Positions 19,814 to 26,713 of a stretch of 64,000 nucleotides of DNA are shown here, one piece after another. This stretch comes from Candidatus Rubrimentiphilum sp. (lineage in GTDB: Bacteria > Vulcanimicrobiota > Vulcanimicrobiia > Vulcanimicrobiales > Vulcanimicrobiaceae). The notes beneath the pieces are model-generated. The model saw nothing but the letters and a program-made list of their open reading frames with translations, made no database searches and was not told the DNA's origin. How positions within the stretch are numbered: position 1 is the first letter of the stretch; each line of letters opens with the position of its first letter. The stretch lies in the NCBI GenBank assembly GCA_035710515.1, contig DASTDE010000004.1, positions 1 through 64,000 on the forward strand, given 5' to 3'. A program made the translations under genes and the position numbers.

Positions 19814-19886
19814 ACCGTAACGCCAAACCAGGGAGACTCGGTAACCACCAGGAATCCGCAGCTCGCTGGACGGAGCAGCATGTGCA

Positions 19887-21383
19887 ATGTTTGGAAACCG
19901 TTCTATTTACCTATTCGTTCTGATGCTGGCGCCGCTTCTCGGCGCAGGTCATCATGCGCCGTCCATGCCGCGGTTCGCAACAGCACCATGCCCGAAAATG
20001 CAGGAGCCGATTGAGGCGCTAAAGCGTGCCAGGTGCGGTTTCTTGCTGGTACCGGAAAACCGTTCGATCAGCAACAGCCGGACCATACGTCTGCAAGTCG
20101 CGATACTGCGCTCGCGTTTACAGCCAGCGCTCCCGGACCCAATCGTATTTATGACCGGCGGCCCAGGCGAGGCCGCGATTGGGACCACGCCGCTTTTGGG
20201 GAGCGCCGGCATCAATCGCAATCGCGACGTCATTATCTTGGAGCAGCGCGGCACATTGTACGACGATCCCGACCTCAATTGCCCGGAACTCGACCGCTAC
20301 TATGGACGCCAAGTCAGTCTATCGTACGATGCGCCATCCACCGGGCGCGCGCAGGCTGGCGCGGCCGCCGCATGCCGCCGCCGGCTTGTGAGTAAAGGCA
20401 TCGACCTCAGCGCCTACAACACCACGGAAAACGAACAAGACTTTGTTGACCTTCGACGTGCGCTCGGCATTCGTCAATGGAATGTGTACGGATATTCATA
20501 CGGGACCGATCTTGCACTATCGTTGATGCGCGATCACCCCGAAGGCATTCGCACCGCGATCATCGACTCAGTAGTTCCGCCCGACATCGTCGACCTTCCC
20601 TGGACGTGGAGCAGCATGCGGGAGGGCATAACGACGATCTTTGGCGACTGTCAGGCACAGCCCAAATGCGCCCGCAAATACCCGAATCTCTTGCAAACGT
20701 TCACGCGGCTCGTCGTGCAACTCGAGGCGCATCCGGTGATCCGCAGCGTTGTCCCGGCACACGGCGGCCCCGCCCTGAAAGTTGTGTTGGACGGCGGAAC
20801 GCTCGTGAACATGATCGTTGCCAACCAGCCGAAGCCCGGTGATATGCCGGCCGCACTTACTGCGCTAGCGCACGGCGATGCGCGCACCTTCTTGCAAGCG
20901 CGCGCCGCGTCGGCGCACGTAGCCGCCGTTCCGGACCAAGCGCAAGGCATGACCCAAAGTATCATTTGCCGGGAATGGGCGCCCTACGGATCGCCGGCGG
21001 ATATTTTGCGCGCCGGAAAACGTGAGTTCCCCGCCTTCCCGGATTCGGTCCTCATCAATGCAGTGCAGATGCCGTTCGAACACGAGCTCTGCAAGGCGTG
21101 GAACGTTCCAGTCGGACCGGCCTCGCAGCGCGTTCAAGTGCGCAGCACTATCCCGACGCTGGTTGTATCGGGTACGATCGACGGGAAGACGGGTGCCCAG
21201 TATGGACGCTACGTTGCAAGCCTCCTCCCGAACTCAACCTATGTGCGCATAAACGGTATCGGGCATTGGGCGATCGCGCAGTCGCCATGCGCGCAGCAAA
21301 TCTTCCAATCGTTTCTTTCTAGTCCGCGCTCACCAAAAACGTCGTGCGCTCCTACCACACCCGGAGTGAAGTTTAGGATTTGA
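19887..21383 (+). CDS. Exported TAP-like alpha/beta hydrolase (first of a pair)
   Basis: 498 aa, signal peptide about 1-24. An alpha/beta hydrolase with MTGGPGEAAIG (oxyanion region, 89-99), the RGTLYDDPDLNCPE loop, and the nucleophile elbow YGYSYG with Ser204. The TAP-like C-terminal segment contains VVSGTIDGKTGAQYGRYVA and GIGHW, supplying the probable acid and His. The family includes Streptomyces tripeptidyl aminopeptidases and carboxylesterase-like proteins acting outside the cytoplasm. Substrate unknown. Immediately followed by a paralogue. Confidence 0.85.
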   Translation: MFGNRSIYLFVLMLAPLLGAGHHAPSMPRFATAPCPKMQEPIEALKRARCGFLLVPENRSISNSRTIRLQVAILRSRLQPALPDPIVFMTGGPGEAAIGTTPLLGSAGINRNRDVIILEQRGTLYDDPDLNCPELDRYYGRQVSLSYDAPSTGRAQAGAAAACRRRLVSKGIDLSAYNTTENEQDFVDLRRALGIRQWNVYGYSYGTDLALSLMRDHPEGIRTAIIDSVVPPDIVDLPWTWSSMREGITTIFGDCQAQPKCARKYPNLLQTFTRLVVQLEAHPVIRSVVPAHGGPALKVVLDGGTLVNMIVANQPKPGDMPAALTALAHGDARTFLQARAASAHVAAVPDQAQGMTQSIICREWAPYGSPADILRAGKREFPAFPDSVLINAVQMPFEHELCKAWNVPVGPASQRVQVRSTIPTLVVSGTIDGKTGAQYGRYVASLLPNSTYVRINGIGHWAIAQSPCAQQIFQSFLSSPRSPKTSCAPTTPGVKFRI

Positions 21384-21385
21384 AG

Positions 21386-22927
21386 ATGAAATTCGTAGCA
21401 TGGGTTGTCGTGTTCGCTTGCGCCGTTATAGCGTTAAGCATAGGTGCATTTTTTGCTGCGGCTCGTACCGCAGCGGCTTCGTCCTTCGTTCCGGGCCCGT
21501 GTCCGGTTCCACCTCAGCCCATAGCAGCATTAAAAACCGCACGCTGCGGACAACTCATCGTCCCCGAAAACCGGCGGCATCCCGATAGAAAAATGATCAG
21601 CCTTTCGGTTGCGATCATTTCGTCAAGCTCACCTAAGAAAAAGAACGATCCGATCGTCTGGCTCGCGGGCGGCCCGGGCGACGATGCGATCACCGAAATT
21701 CCGATGGCGTTAGCCGGAAAACTGAACGCTAATCGTGATGTGATTTTCATGTCGCAGCGCGGCACCTATACCGCGAAGCCAAAACTGACGTGCGACGCAG
21801 TCGATCGTTGGGCTGCGGAAACACTGAACATGCCGTACGATTCACCGGCCACCGGTCGCGCGTCTTCGATTGCGACGCGTACATGCCGCGGCGACGTGTT
21901 GACCAGGACTGCGGATCTCAGCGCATACAACACGCTCGAAAGCGTTGACGATCTCGAAGCCTTGCGCCTTGCGTTGCGTATCCCGAAATGGAATCTCTAC
22001 GGCATCTCGTACGGAACCTACTTCGCGCTGACGTACATGCGCCAATATCCGAAGGGCATTCGATCCGTTGGCATTGACGGCGTTTTTCCGCCTTCGCTCG
22101 CAGGCGGCGCCGCCACCTGGAAAACCGCAGGCGAGGGAATCAACGCGGTTTTCGAAGCGTGCCGGCAGCAACTTCGGTGCCGTCAGCGTTATGGAGATAT
22201 AGGCGCGACGTTTCGACGCCTCGTGCTCCAGTACGAGAAGTCGCCTAAGACGGTCAAGGTGAAGGTGCCCGGCCATTCCGGGACCGTGAACGTAATGATC
22301 AGCGGCGGCATGCTCGTGCAATGGGCCGTGTCGCCCGGTACGCACATCGCCTCAAAACTTCCGTCATCGTTCGACGCGCTTGCGCACGGCGATCCTGGGC
22401 CGATCGCTTCAACGTGGGCCGCGCCGAAGCTGGACCCTGCCGGCATTGGCGTGATAAGTAACGGTTTAAATGATAGCGTCGCCTGCGGTGAGTGGGTGCC
22501 GTATGAAACTGAAAAGAATGTTATCGATGCGGGACGGCGCGCGTTCCCGACGTTTCCGGTTTCAATTTTAAAGAACGCGCCCAACTTGCCGTTTCTGCGC
22601 GAAAACTGCCTGGAATGGAAAGTGCCGGCAGTCTCTCCGTTAGTGCGAGCAGTAACGCGAAGCAGCATACCGACGCTCGTCATCTCCGCCCAATACGACG
22701 CTCAAACGGCGCCGTCGTTCGGTCCCTATGTGGCGCGAACGCTCACGAATGCTACGGTGGTGACCATTCCGAACGTTGCACACGTTGCCTTCGGCAGCCC
22801 GTCGGCGACTGCAAACGCCTGCGCGTATAAAATCGTCAGGTCCTTCTTCGACCAGCCGAACCGGGCAGACACGAGCTGCGTCAAAAAAGTCCCTGCGACG
22901 AACTTCGTGATCAACCCGCGCCGCTAA
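21386..22927 (+). CDS. Exported TAP-like alpha/beta hydrolase (second of a pair)
   Basis: 513 aa. ATG at 21386 lies 3 bp after the previous stop; a TTG two codons earlier is also in frame. Signal peptide about 1-31. The layout matches its neighbour: VWLAGGPGDDAI, MSQRGTYTAKPKLTCD, elbow GISYG, and VISAQYDAQTAPSFGPYVA with NVAHVAFG at the end. The N-terminal PCPVPPQPIAALKTARCGQLIVPENR block is shared with the first copy, so the pair arose by tandem duplication followed by strong divergence. Both are probably periplasmic peptidases or esterases. Confidence 0.85.
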   Translation: MKFVAWVVVFACAVIALSIGAFFAAARTAAASSFVPGPCPVPPQPIAALKTARCGQLIVPENRRHPDRKMISLSVAIISSSSPKKKNDPIVWLAGGPGDDAITEIPMALAGKLNANRDVIFMSQRGTYTAKPKLTCDAVDRWAAETLNMPYDSPATGRASSIATRTCRGDVLTRTADLSAYNTLESVDDLEALRLALRIPKWNLYGISYGTYFALTYMRQYPKGIRSVGIDGVFPPSLAGGAATWKTAGEGINAVFEACRQQLRCRQRYGDIGATFRRLVLQYEKSPKTVKVKVPGHSGTVNVMISGGMLVQWAVSPGTHIASKLPSSFDALAHGDPGPIASTWAAPKLDPAGIGVISNGLNDSVACGEWVPYETEKNVIDAGRRAFPTFPVSILKNAPNLPFLRENCLEWKVPAVSPLVRAVTRSSIPTLVISAQYDAQTAPSFGPYVARTLTNATVVTIPNVAHVAFGSPSATANACAYKIVRSFFDQPNRADTSCVKKVPATNFVINPRR

Positions 22928-22930
22928 CCG

Positions 22931-23306: not shown

Positions 23307-23382
23307 CTAGAACGGCGCAGTCTCACGATTTGGCCGAATATCACAATATCTCCCGTTTTCGCCTGCATTTCACAGTATCTCA
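23307..23382. repeat. 76-bp intergenic repeat, copy A
   Basis: From CTAGAACGGCG to CACAGTATCTCA this matches 25656-25732 with four substitutions and a 1-bp indel. Internal words repeat: TTTCACA(A/G)TATCTC occurs twice, at either end of a C/G-rich core. It lies between the small exported gene and the AraC gene. No open frame. Confidence 0.85.
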
Positions 23383-23402
23383 AAACAAGAAAAGGCCGAT
23401 CG

Positions 23403-24224
23403 TCAATCTTCGAACTTTTTTCGGATCCGACGGCGATATTCACCCGGAGCTTGCCCAACTAGCCGTTTGAAGATCCTCGACATGTGGCTTTGGTCGGTGA
23501 ATCCGGCTTCAGCGGCGACGTCCGCAAGAGGCCACTCCGTCTCGACGACCCGCCTGCATGCCAGCTGCATACGGAGCCCTACGACGTAGTCTCCAATCGA
23601 ACGTCCGCGAAAGCGGTGAAACGCGCGGCAGAGGTGCGACGGGTGCACGCGGGCTGCTTCGGCGAGAGCGCGCACTGAAATAGCGTCCGTAAAATTTCGC
23701 TGCAGATTCCGGTCCACATCCGCCATCCAAGGCGGCTCATGAGCAGGCGTTGCCGGCATGTGTCCCGCGAAAGCACAGAGTTCATAGAGTAGCGATTCAA
23801 TTGACAACTCGGTGGTCGCATCACGCGTCAGGAATTCTTGGTAGAGCCGGGACATCAGCCAGGCCGGATCACCGCCGGCTAGCTCCACAAAATGTTCTGG
23901 TAAACCGCCGGCGGCCGCAATCATCTCGGTCCATCGGGGCAACAATTCGACCATAAAAAACCGCCCGCCGGCCGGGCCGATTGTATCGGTATGTTCCATC
24001 AGCGGCGCATGAAAAACCACGGTGAAAGGATCGTACGCGATCGTATCGCCGCCGGAAGTTTCGCGGTACGATCCTTCAATAAGCAGGCTAAAATAGGCGT
24101 ATTCGTGCGTATGAGCCGGAACCGTCTTGCCCAAGTCGTGGCGGACTTCAGACAGCACGGCATCAGCAATTCGCGCGCTCACAGTCTGCCCAAAAAATGC
24201 GCCGGCTTTTAGTGCGATCGTCAT
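23403..24224 (-). CDS. AraC-family transcriptional regulator
   Basis: 273 aa from ATG 24224, which overlaps the stop of the upstream hydrolase as ATGA. The longer frame to 24533 is an out-of-frame overlap. Residues about 30-130 form a cupin-like sensor (VPAHTHEYAYFSLLIEGSYRE). The last 100 residues hold two HTH motifs: ISVRALAEAARVHPSHLCRAF and WPLADVAAEAGFTDQSHMSRIFKRLVGQAPGEYRR, the standard AraC/XylS pattern. Cytoplasmic and probably ligand-responsive. Co-transcription with the hydrolase suggests they respond to the same compound. Confidence 0.9.
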   Translation of the reverse strand: MTIALKAGAFFGQTVSARIADAVLSEVRHDLGKTVPAHTHEYAYFSLLIEGSYRETSGGDTIAYDPFTVVFHAPLMEHTDTIGPAGGRFFMVELLPRWTEMIAAAGGLPEHFVELAGGDPAWLMSRLYQEFLTRDATTELSIESLLYELCAFAGHMPATPAHEPPWMADVDRNLQRNFTDAISVRALAEAARVHPSHLCRAFHRFRGRSIGDYVVGLRMQLACRRVVETEWPLADVAAEAGFTDQSHMSRIFKRLVGQAPGEYRRRIRKKFED

Positions 24225-25513
24225 GTCCGCGGGTTCAAGTTCCGGTTCGCAGCGAACGTTATTAGCATATCCAGGAAGCCGGGCGCGTTGTGCGGCCATC
24301 CGTCGGCGGTTGCGGGCGGAATGCGCAAGGTATGATCCGCTCCAGGAAACGTCCGTACCCAGACTCTTTGATTCCCGCCGCGTTTCAACAGCCGAAGCGT
24401 CTTGGCGATGCTTTGCTGCACCGGAACGAGTGCATCGTCGGCTCCAAACAGTATCAGCACCGGGACGCGGACCGCTTCCCACGCTTGTGAGTTGTCGTAG
24501 TTTCCAACCTTGCGGTACCAGTCCCAAATCCAATTGTTATCGTCCGGAATCGCAAGGTCGCTCAACCATAGTGAGCCTGCGTACTCTTTGATGTCCATGC
24601 GCAACTGGTCGTGCGAGGTGCCGTTGCGCGCTGTATCGACGAATTCAGCATAGACCCTTTCCGCCGAGATGAGCTCCTGCCCTGAGTAGTGCTGGCGCAA
24701 ATAGGTGTCGACCCGGAAGAGATCTTGGTTATACTGCGGACCAACCGGCCCATCCGCAGCCGCCAGCCATGTAACTTCGGGATTGCGGAAAGCGATGGCC
24801 GGTGCGATCTCGGCACCTTGACTGTGTCCGTAAAGCCCGACGCGCGTCCGGTCCACGTCGGAGCGCAGCCAGAGCGTGTGGACGGCCGCACGCGCGTCGC
24901 CAGCCAAGTCTTGCAGCGATGCTCGGCGCCAGTCACCGGTTGATGTTCCGACGCCACGCTTATCGTAACTCAATGCAATGATGCCGTGGCGCGCTACGTA
25001 GTCGGCTAAATACGCCGTAGCCCACCGGCCTTCGGCGCCGGAGCCGTGCACGAAAACGATTGCCGGATGCTTGCCTGCCGACTGAGGCACGTAAATGCTA
25101 CCAGCCAGACGCACTCCGCCGCTTTCGAACGAGGTTTGCTCGACCGCATAAGGTTTGGCAACTGACTGCGAAACGCGGTGCAGTTTGAATGTTCCGTAAC
25201 TGCTATTTTCATGAAACGTGCCACGGATCACGTTTCCGCTCGCCGATGCATCAAAGAGTGTTGTCGTAGTGTCGCCGACAAGTTCCCAATGCAATGCAGG
25301 GCCTAGTTGCAAGTTTGAGAGCGGTATATCGAGCGCGCCTAGGTCTGTAGCCGAGAACGTCCCGCGGTTGAGCTTTGCGTCGAGGTCTATGCTTACGTTG
25401 AGCTGCGACGAGCCGCGCAGCATCGTCCCTTCCCAGTGGCCGGCGAGAGGTGACAATCCTTGGAGAACGTTGGCCGCGCCAAGGACGAAGTAAAGAGTAA
25501 GTACCTTAAACAT
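24221..25513 (-). CDS. Exported alpha/beta hydrolase (dienelactone hydrolase/S9-like)
   Basis: 430 aa. Signal peptide about 1-19. An N-terminal beta domain of about 125 residues precedes the hydrolase fold: HPAIVFVHGSGAEGRW, ALSYDKRGVGTSTGDWRR, nucleophile elbow GLYGHSQGAE, then LILFGADDALVPVQQS (Asp) and GADHTLR (His). This resembles exported acyl-peptide hydrolase or esterase proteins with an N-terminal lipocalin-like domain. It leads a two-gene unit with the AraC regulator. Confidence 0.85.
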   Translation of the reverse strand: MFKVLTLYFVLGAANVLQGLSPLAGHWEGTMLRGSSQLNVSIDLDAKLNRGTFSATDLGALDIPLSNLQLGPALHWELVGDTTTTLFDASASGNVIRGTFHENSSYGTFKLHRVSQSVAKPYAVEQTSFESGGVRLAGSIYVPQSAGKHPAIVFVHGSGAEGRWATAYLADYVARHGIIALSYDKRGVGTSTGDWRRASLQDLAGDARAAVHTLWLRSDVDRTRVGLYGHSQGAEIAPAIAFRNPEVTWLAAADGPVGPQYNQDLFRVDTYLRQHYSGQELISAERVYAEFVDTARNGTSHDQLRMDIKEYAGSLWLSDLAIPDDNNWIWDWYRKVGNYDNSQAWEAVRVPVLILFGADDALVPVQQSIAKTLRLLKRGGNQRVWVRTFPGADHTLRIPPATADGWPHNAPGFLDMLITFAANRNLNPRT

Positions 25514-25633
25514 CTTCGCAGTTTCTCACATAAACGGCCATTAGGCTTGTATGGAGATTGCATCCGAGCGCGGTGAAACGTGGTCACTGTCACGGCGCGG
25601 CGATGCTCAAGGAGCTAAAACGGCTAAAACGTC

Positions 25634-25663
25634 AGAACGCTAGAACGCTAGAACGCTAGAACG
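25634..25663. repeat. Tandem 8-bp repeat AGAACGCT
   Basis: Almost four head-to-tail copies of AGAACGCT precede and run into the 77-bp repeat. The same unit recurs as two to three imperfect copies at 26264-26287, where the last one encodes the end of ssb. The 25514-25756 gap otherwise holds no gene. Confidence 0.8.
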
Positions 25664-25732
25664 GCGTTGTCTCACGATTTGGCCGAATTTCACAATATCT
25701 CGCCGTTTTTGCCTGCATTTCACAGTATCTCA
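25656..25732. repeat. 77-bp intergenic repeat, copy B
   Basis: Near-identical to 23307-23382 (four substitutions, one 1-bp insertion) in the same orientation. It lies between the alpha/beta hydrolase promoter region and the VOC gene. A more decayed relative may be present at 26196-26255 (TTTCACAATA, then CTAATATCT and CTGTTTTCGGCC). Confidence 0.85.
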
Positions 25733-25756
25733 TTTTTTCGCTTTGTAAGATGCGGT

Positions 25757-26083
25757 TTACCGGCCGCCATAGCTCTTCGTGAGGTTGAAAATGAGGCCGA
25801 ATGGATCGCGCAGATAGCAACGCGGTAGGTCAGGATCTTCCTCGACAAGCGCACATCCCTGTTCGATCAGGTTCCTCTTTGCCTCTTCCAGATCGTCGAC
25901 CTCAAACTCGAAAACCGATCCATTCTCTTCCCCCGGCTCGAAGTACAAGATGAAGCTGCCGGTATCGAAGCCGATCACCCGTTCCGATTCCGATGTGATC
26001 GGAAAGCCGAGGACGCCGTTGTAGTAGTTCTTCGCTTCTTGGAGATCTTTGGCACGAAGCATGACGTCACTTGTCGATTTCAT
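25757..26083 (-). CDS. VOC (glyoxalase/bleomycin-resistance fold) protein
   Basis: 108 aa, cytoplasmic. Two beta-alpha-beta-beta-beta units: MLRAKDLQEAKNYYNGVLGFPI, then FILYFEPGEENGSVFEFEVDDLEEAKRNL, ending CYLRDPFGLIFNLTKSYG. Glu and His positions of true glyoxalase I are only partly present, so the reaction is unknown. It may be dimeric, each monomer giving half of the site. Flanked by repeat DNA on both sides. Confidence 0.8.
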   Translation of the reverse strand: MKSTSDVMLRAKDLQEAKNYYNGVLGFPITSESERVIGFDTGSFILYFEPGEENGSVFEFEVDDLEEAKRNLIEQGCALVEEDPDLPRCYLRDPFGLIFNLTKSYGGR

Positions 26084-26195
26084 TGTTTGACCTCTTTTTG
26101 GTCATCGGAACCAACGGTTTTCAAGGCGGGCTTTCCCAGCGCAAAGAACGCGATTACCGCGAGGTTTTTAGGCCGTGCTACGAGTACGGGCGCCG

Positions 26196-26278
26196 CATTT
26201 CACAATAACGAGGCAGTTTCCTAATATCTACCTGTTTTCGGCCAGATACTGGGAGCCATCATTAGAACGCTAGAACGG
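26196..26278. repeat. Degenerate intergenic repeat next to ssb
   Basis: The gap 26084-26278 has no gene. Its right half carries words of the 77-bp repeat (TTTCACAATA, TAATATCT, CTGTTTTCGGCC) in the same order, followed by AGAACGCT units at 26264 onward. I read it as a decayed third copy; the match is weaker than between copies A and B. Confidence 0.4.
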
Positions 26279-26713
26279 CTAGAACGGAATCTCTTCGTCG
26301 AGCGCGTCGCCTAGCGGAGCTGCGCCGGCCGCAACCGGTGTGCCGTTGCCAAAGCCTTCGCTCGATTCTTGCTGCTGCTGACGATCGCGTGGCGAGCCGA
26401 GCATCTGCATCGCGTTGATGACGACCTCGGTGGCCTGGCGTTTGTTGCCTTCTTTATCTTCGTATTGCCGAATCGAAAGCCGGCCCTCGACCAGGCACGA
26501 CATGCCCTTCTTTAAATAGGTGTTGCAGGTCTCAGCCAGTTTCTCCCAAGCGACGATGTCCACGAAGAGCGTGTCTTCGGGTTTGGGGTCGCGCTTATTG
26601 GGATTGACCGCGATGCGAAACTTCACGACGCCGGCGCCGGAGCCGATGTACCGGATCTCCGGGTCGCGCACGAGCGTCCCGACCAAAATCACTCTGTTAT
26701 AACTTGCCGCCAT
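26279..26713 (-). CDS. ssb: Single-stranded DNA-binding protein
   Basis: 144 aa. The OB fold covers residues 1-105 (NRVILVGTLVRDPEIRYIGSGAGVVKFRIAVN ... CLVEGRLSIRQYEDKEGNKR). A Gln/Gly-rich linker (QQQQESSEGFGNG) and the acidic tip DEEIPF follow. SSB coats unwound DNA as a tetramer and recruits repair and replication proteins through the tip. It follows rpsF by 75 bp, a common order; rpsR and rplI are not in this cluster. The last codons (TTCTAG) form part of the AGAACG repeat on the other strand. Confidence 0.97.
   Translation of the reverse strand: MAASYNRVILVGTLVRDPEIRYIGSGAGVVKFRIAVNPNKRDPKPEDTLFVDIVAWEKLAETCNTYLKKGMSCLVEGRLSIRQYEDKEGNKRQATEVVINAMQMLGSPRDRQQQQESSEGFGNGTPVAAGAAPLGDALDEEIPF

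Follow-up and report, generated by a model that had tools for sequence, protein, structure and literature searches.

Two near-identical direct repeats in the window (the whole 64,000-nucleotide stretch that was analysed, from genome G000) are probably the right ends of small transposon units that carry no transposase of their own and lie at the 3' end of ssb. These units would have been inserted by a transposase, the likeliest being a protein with a SWIM-like finger and a DDE_Tnp_1 domain. Cassettes of this kind stack, in one orientation, at the last codons of ssb; an undescribed enzyme that cuts DNA and targets this one point has probably moved them.

Repeats and units in the window

The repeat copies, 76-77 bp long and 93.5% identical, occupy positions 23307-23382 and 25656-25732. 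Their direct orientation with four substitutions and one indel, the doubled word TTTCACA(A/G)TATCTC within them and the placement of both an AraC gene (23403-24227) and a hydrolase gene (24221-25513) between them are as described in an earlier sequence-only reading, which took the pair to flank a mobile cassette or a recombination product. Across the 2.54 Mb of genome G000 (5 contigs), these two were the only full copies that a search returned (E = 6e-25). No second location in G000 carries the paired word TTTCACA(A/G)TATCTC with two mismatches allowed, and TTTCACARTATCTC, also with two mismatches, is found elsewhere in G000 as scattered singles only. A common genome-wide repeat, the alternative that the earlier reading had set against its own, is ruled out by this copy number and by the lack of a further paired site; in relatives the copies bound variable genes. 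The features of the region are as follows.

26279..26713, minus strand: ssb (single-strand DNA-binding protein, ending ...LDEEIPF-stop), anchor gene and putative insertion target; Pfam SSB E 2e-31, C-terminus and downstream sequence
26279..26286, minus strand: presumed target octamer, formed by the 8 bases that close ssb (CGTTCTAG, Phe codon and stop); the plus strand reads CTAGAACG
26262..26277, minus strand: two additional octamers (CGTTCTAG, CGTTCTAA) from the ssb stop to the left end
26197..26261, plus strand: left end (LE) of the ssb-proximal unit; LE profile (seed member) and alignment
25757..26083, minus strand: cargo of unit 1, gene of a glyoxalase-fold protein; Pfam and synteny
25663..25732, plus strand: right end (RE) of unit 1, repeat copy 2, with terminus TGTCTCAC and two TTTCACARTATCTC sites
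25617..25664, minus strand: six consecutive octamers whose Phe-stop alleles are mixed (TAG, TAG, TAG, TGA, TAG, TAG; TTC and TTT)
24221..25513, minus strand: cargo of unit 2, secreted-type alpha/beta hydrolase (S33/S15-like); Pfam and patchy distribution
23403..24227, minus strand: cargo of unit 2, AraC-family regulator overlapping the end of the hydrolase gene; Pfam HTH_18
23314..23382, plus strand: RE of unit 2, repeat copy 1, terminus decayed (CAGTCTCAC)
23307..23314, minus strand: single octamer beyond the RE of unit 2

Unit 1 (LE-glyoxalase-RE) spans 25663-26261. Unit 2 (hydrolase-AraC-RE) runs from 23314 to about 25616 and has lost its left end; six octamers separate the two. To the right of the glyoxalase-fold gene stand ssb and then a gene that reads as rpsF by sequence. 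Beside every copy are CTAGAACG octamers that the earlier reading overlooked, six consecutive ones at about 25617-25664, one at 23307-23314 and three at 26262-26286, the last three extending into the ssb stop codon. The sequence at 26196 that had been taken for a decayed third copy is real, but it represents the left end, opposite to the RE, of an element of this type (26197-26261): its match to the LE profile has E = 2e-18, a circular value because the sequence is in the profile seed, and its match to the RE is non-significant. The idea of a mobile cassette is supported in that the repeat marks the boundary of variable gene content at one locus in relatives, but the two copies are not the paired ends of a single unit; one is the right end of the glyoxalase unit, the other that of the AraC-hydrolase unit. 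The ends in the window are partly decayed, and the array is probably inactive now in G000. Adjoining the array at 19870-22929 are two TAP-like hydrolase genes; a pair with 91% identity to them occurs in G003, farther from ssb and with more units between.

Genes carried between the ends

The AraC-hydrolase block is missing from the ssb locus in 6/6 congeners. One of these, G006, approximates the strain that the earlier reading had proposed to look for, without the unit and with one repeat left: it has ssb, the LE and, at the same position, a homologue of the glyoxalase gene (85% DNA identity), without the following RE and without the AraC-hydrolase unit. The best homologues of the hydrolase within the genus reach about 31% identity (G005, G006), those in genera g37 and g9 56-63%. 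The closest include one of 60% in G089 and one of 56% in G094, both paired with AraC outside arrays and with no such ends nearby, which suggests that a ready-made two-gene operon was captured. The genes between copies vary by species and include an esterase with TetR, a nitroreductase, an NmrA-type reductase, a TonB receptor and sigma/anti-sigma genes, among others. Pfam scans of about 60 array genes revealed no shared recombinase. In other genera (loci L102, L108, L109, L101 and L051) cargo with defence- or toxin-like domains was observed (AIPR, RES, HEPN, Schlafen AlbA_2 and Fic), and at L047:2829-3000 there is a near-empty unit whose LE and RE almost touch, in tandem with a full RE.

Site and orientation in the family

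Within the genus, copies are present in 6/7 genomes and cluster next to rpsF-ssb; G002 has seven in about 10 kb and G003 six in 23 kb. The repeat was turned into a sequence model, R1, which matched in 21 of 99 genomes of the family, belonging to 10 genera. Family-wide, every RE copy whose contig also contains ssb (31/31) lies downstream of the gene and antiparallel to it, at a median distance of 4.2 kb, with one at 73 kb. A further 12 RE copies are on contigs with no identified ssb; some of these contigs are short, two copies are beside xseB and at least two are true off-site copies (G005 contig C7 and G025 contig C7). The diverged RE-like copy at G005:C7:119174-119246 (TGTCTCGGCG, TTTCGGAGTATCTC) is not at ssb, has no octamer and possibly belongs to a separate sub-family. 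In nine genera, namely that of the window and g6, g19, g26, g27, g32, g34, g35 and g37, the LE begins at the ssb stop, immediately behind an octamer.

This distribution bears on whether the repeat is an ordinary intergenic repeat or regulatory site, such as an AraC operator, that marks unstable DNA in which homologous recombination changes the genes. The doubled motif does look like a direct-repeat operator, and near-identical copies promote recombination. However, the genome holds two copies only, other genera have the same site and orientation with different versions of the motif, the flanking octamers are derived from ssb, and units without AraC have the same ends. The position of the LE, exactly at the ssb stop in nine genera, contradicts such an explanation, which we consider very improbable.

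In G093 (contig C7, L101:3440-3500) the octamers and the same LE are found at the stop of a second target, xseB, which encodes the small subunit of exonuclease VII (Pfam E 2e-14) and ends EEEEIPF-stop, an SSB-like tail. An array at xseB with the same end codons points to recognition of the DNA sequence of the tail rather than of the ssb locus. Several contigs (G096:C4, G056:C94, G049:C164 and others, one of them 1.93 Mb long) stop at most about 11 bases past ssb; the array seems to break assemblies and so to be under-reported.

Structure of the unit ends

Read in the direction of ssb, the order is ssb ...CCG TTY TRR, octamer copies, LE, cargo, RE, octamer(s) and the next unit. The RE is laid out as (..GAGATACTGTGAAAT..)x2 followed by ..AAATCGTGAGACA-ACGC, and the LE as TGC-TGTCTCACGGTATCTAGCC..GGCCAGATACTGCGAAAT with one further site; several units have no LE. 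The termini of LE and RE are inverted (TGTCTCAC / GTGAGACA) and differ beyond TGTCTCAC, and both ends also hold internal copies of the same motif. In several genera the LE is a palindrome of two opposed sites, with fold z-scores of -4.4 to -8.9 in four of the seven tested; the palindrome is weak in the decayed LE of the window. No palindrome was found in the RE, which folds no better than shuffled sequences (z-score +0.9). The inner motif differs in other genera (CAGTATCTC, CCCTAACTC, ATTGAATCG, CATTTTCG), and terminal and internal sites covary genus by genus, as would be expected of one DNA-binding protein with several sites per end.

Tandem units in one orientation, anchored at one locus and made up chiefly of accessory genes, resemble the cassette arrays of integrons, in which case the repeats would be attC sites and the cassettes would be shuffled by an integrase encoded elsewhere. 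Against this, the RE has neither an attC-like palindrome, as its fold z-score indicates, nor visible RYYYAAC/GTTRRRY boxes, the anchor of the array is ssb and not intI-attI, and each unit has two different ends. With no integrase gene at the arrays examined and no attC fold, an integron was ruled out, and we give this origin next to no credence.

Origin of the octamers

In the window, ssb closes with the eight bases CGTTCTAG (CG-Phe-stop, from the Pro-Phe-stop end), and the octamer CTAGAACG is their reverse complement. A duplicate of this 8-base gene end lies beyond the units, on the side away from ssb. Octamers were picked by a rule that allowed one mismatch over the first six bases and left the last two free, so that a test on the stop alleles is not built into the picking. 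With consecutive identical copies collapsed, the alleles among 69 octamers include TAG 34, TGA 20, TAA 10 and TGG 2, the last against 11.5 expected from column frequencies (Fisher p ~1e-6), and the fifth base, at the Phe position, is only C or T. The displaced octamers thus vary only as Phe-stop ends may, which indicates copying from working ssb ends; by their sequence they are duplicated fossils of real ssb ends. At ssb-proximal units with both ends, the flanking octamers are identical in 4/6 and differ in 2/6. Mixed runs extend to as many as 14 octamers (L045 near 14733), and such long mixed runs suggest repeated events. G086 has a short octamer run at ssb with no unit behind it, which is how an excision scar would look.

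Comparison with elements moved by tyrosine recombinases

Insertion at the end of ssb is already known from GInts, islands with three tyrosine recombinases and the genes ginABCD that insert there and leave the product unchanged (Bardaji et al. 2017, PMC5385486), and GInts are a serious rival here. If tyrosine recombinases like those of GInts, SEs, RITs or Tn554 mobilized the units in trans, the octamer would be the crossover spacer, the inverted TGTCTCAC arms the core sites and the TTTCAC repeats the arm sites. The attL of GInts overlaps the gene end (PMC5385486), a trio element with different ends is present at ssb in G073, several tyrosine-recombinase trios and pairs occur in the genus, including one trio in G000, and GInt-type ends are interleaved with TGTCTCAC-type ends in some arrays. 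The single-octamer junctions between inverted arms (~12-8-11) also resemble a recombination core, and strand-biased circularizing elements (SEs) leave such spacers, of 6 bp (PMC10214605). However, no tyrosine recombinase gene was found inside any examined array of the TGTCTCAC end type, and the inspected surroundings of the trio and pair genes yielded no TGTCTCAC ends. One covarying motif is common to terminal and internal sites, as a single binding domain predicts, and a simple integrase crossover does not yield long tandem runs of mixed octamers. Mobilization by tyrosine recombinases is therefore unlikely in our view, although it retains some real weight.

GInts and the units described here share insertion at the very end of ssb, a site used by several unrelated GInts, and accessory cargo. 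Whereas GInts carry ginABCD at the element end and flanking repeats of 10-17 nt, the units are recombinase-less, with multi-site ends, 8-bp octamers and stacked arrays. SEs are similar in their inverted terminal motifs and in a short host-derived spacer that records past sites, but that spacer is 6 bp, they carry intA-tfp-intB-srap genes and they are reported from Gammaproteobacteria only (PMC10214605).

A second element family with GTTAAGTTAA-type ends occurs at the same ssb stop (L187:569-6800 in G073; also L171, L189, L157 and L170). The G073 element is GInt-like, with three consecutive genes of 410, 496 and 673 aa and Phage_integrase Pfam matches in the first two, and the G042 copy of the family carries a type I restriction-modification system. 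Elsewhere in G000, locus L129 (G000:C1:335500-339500) contains three consecutive genes of tyrosine-recombinase type, recombinase-in-trio-like, with relatives in G004 and G006.

A candidate transposase

The likeliest driver of the units is a putative transposase of 400-540 aa that combines a SWIM-like CxCx10CxH finger with a DDE_Tnp_1 domain. Homologues of at least 40% identity were found in only three of 149 genomes of the phylum (G071, G088 and G064, from three genera), and in all three the gene lies just downstream of ssb, antisense, directly behind the same type of LE. The DDE, YREK (Y447, R450, E454, K461) and CxCx10CxH residues are intact in the three proteins, the catalytic and YREK ones invariant. 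Between the LE and the DDE gene there are 3 LE-type sites in G071 (0.02 expected), 4 in G064 (0.007) and 1 in G088 (0.004), and fragments of the protein are present in arrays of G087 and G092. In G071, G088 and G064 alike, the stretch directly behind the DDE gene showed no identifiable RE, so that a complete autonomous element is not seen in these genomes. Three genomes with co-location are few, and the gene could be a passenger. There is no close homologue in G000 or its congeners, though the ends look fresh in G003 and G005, and the array of G000 is thus probably a relic or served in trans. No relatives of the protein were found in plasmids and viral contigs, and no solved structure matched its profile.

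The IS4 family is defined by the signature Y(2)R(3)E(6)K and a spacing of D(60-110)D(100-150)E (PMC2266710). The candidate has the signature, but its D309-D389-E454 spacing of 80 and 65 lies outside the definition. Its NCBIfam scores fall short of every family cut-off, the best being IS5 (80 bits vs 140), with IS1182 (52 vs 270) and IS4 (29 vs 115) behind it, and with these scores and the non-IS4 spacing it is left unclassified.

Tn7 and Tn7-like transposons also insert at a safe site, at the 3' end of an essential and conserved gene, and also have several binding sites per end and TGT...ACA termini, and the units might have been targeted to ssb by a TniQ/TnsD protein. TniQ occurs in 5/99 genomes of the family, however, never at ssb, and the TniQ loci lack these ends; the rve core is missing from G000 and most congeners, and the presumed duplication is 8 bp, compared with 5 for Tn7-like elements. 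The units differ further in being non-autonomous and in tandem. Since tnsABC and TniQ are not at the array, and a dual-TniQ element in G003 contig C4 has no such ends, a Tn7-like system was rejected and is highly improbable. That contig contains Tn7-like genes at L120:2684-8451, in the order tnsA-B-C-tniQ-tniQ as judged from open reading frames, unlinked to the ssb array.

In mobile insertion cassettes (MICs, e.g. MIC231 of the IS4 family), cargo lies between transposon ends without a transposase and is presumed to be mobilized in trans by a DDE enzyme. The LE-glyoxalase-RE unit of the window and other units have the same composition, transposon ends around transposase-less cargo, and presumably the same dependence on a DDE enzyme. 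MICs are not described as single-site arrays, whereas the units here form one and have three predicted binding sites per end and a palindromic left end. The term is used in PMC2266710 and other papers.

Proposed mechanism and implications

Insertion by a DDE transposase may proceed as follows. The enzyme would bind the repeated sites in the unit ends and recognize the DNA that encodes the acidic tail of SSB, (D/E)EIPF-stop. Each insertion of a unit would duplicate 8 bp of the target, leaving ssb with its full end, and would push older units and octamers downstream. Insertion followed by excision would leave extra octamers as scars. In its fullest form, which we put forward tentatively and as a little less than an even prospect, this would be an undescribed cassette-accumulation system in which the SWIM-finger DDE_Tnp_1 protein reads SSB-tail DNA, insertion occurs at a single point with an 8-bp Phe-stop duplication, and an integron-like array results whose octamers are an ordered record of past insertions and of ssb stop codons.

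If this is true, a DDE transposase of ordinary appearance would, without the extra targeting proteins of Tn7, be specific for a single site at the end of an essential gene, and its target would be chosen via codons that evolution can hardly alter. The system would explain the assembly breaks directly after ssb and could provide a compact site-specific insertion tool, and the convergence of unrelated element types, GInts and the ssb-end units, on ssb would become testable. For many bacteria of one phylum, the end of ssb would then be a place where accessory and defence genes are stored safely and in order.
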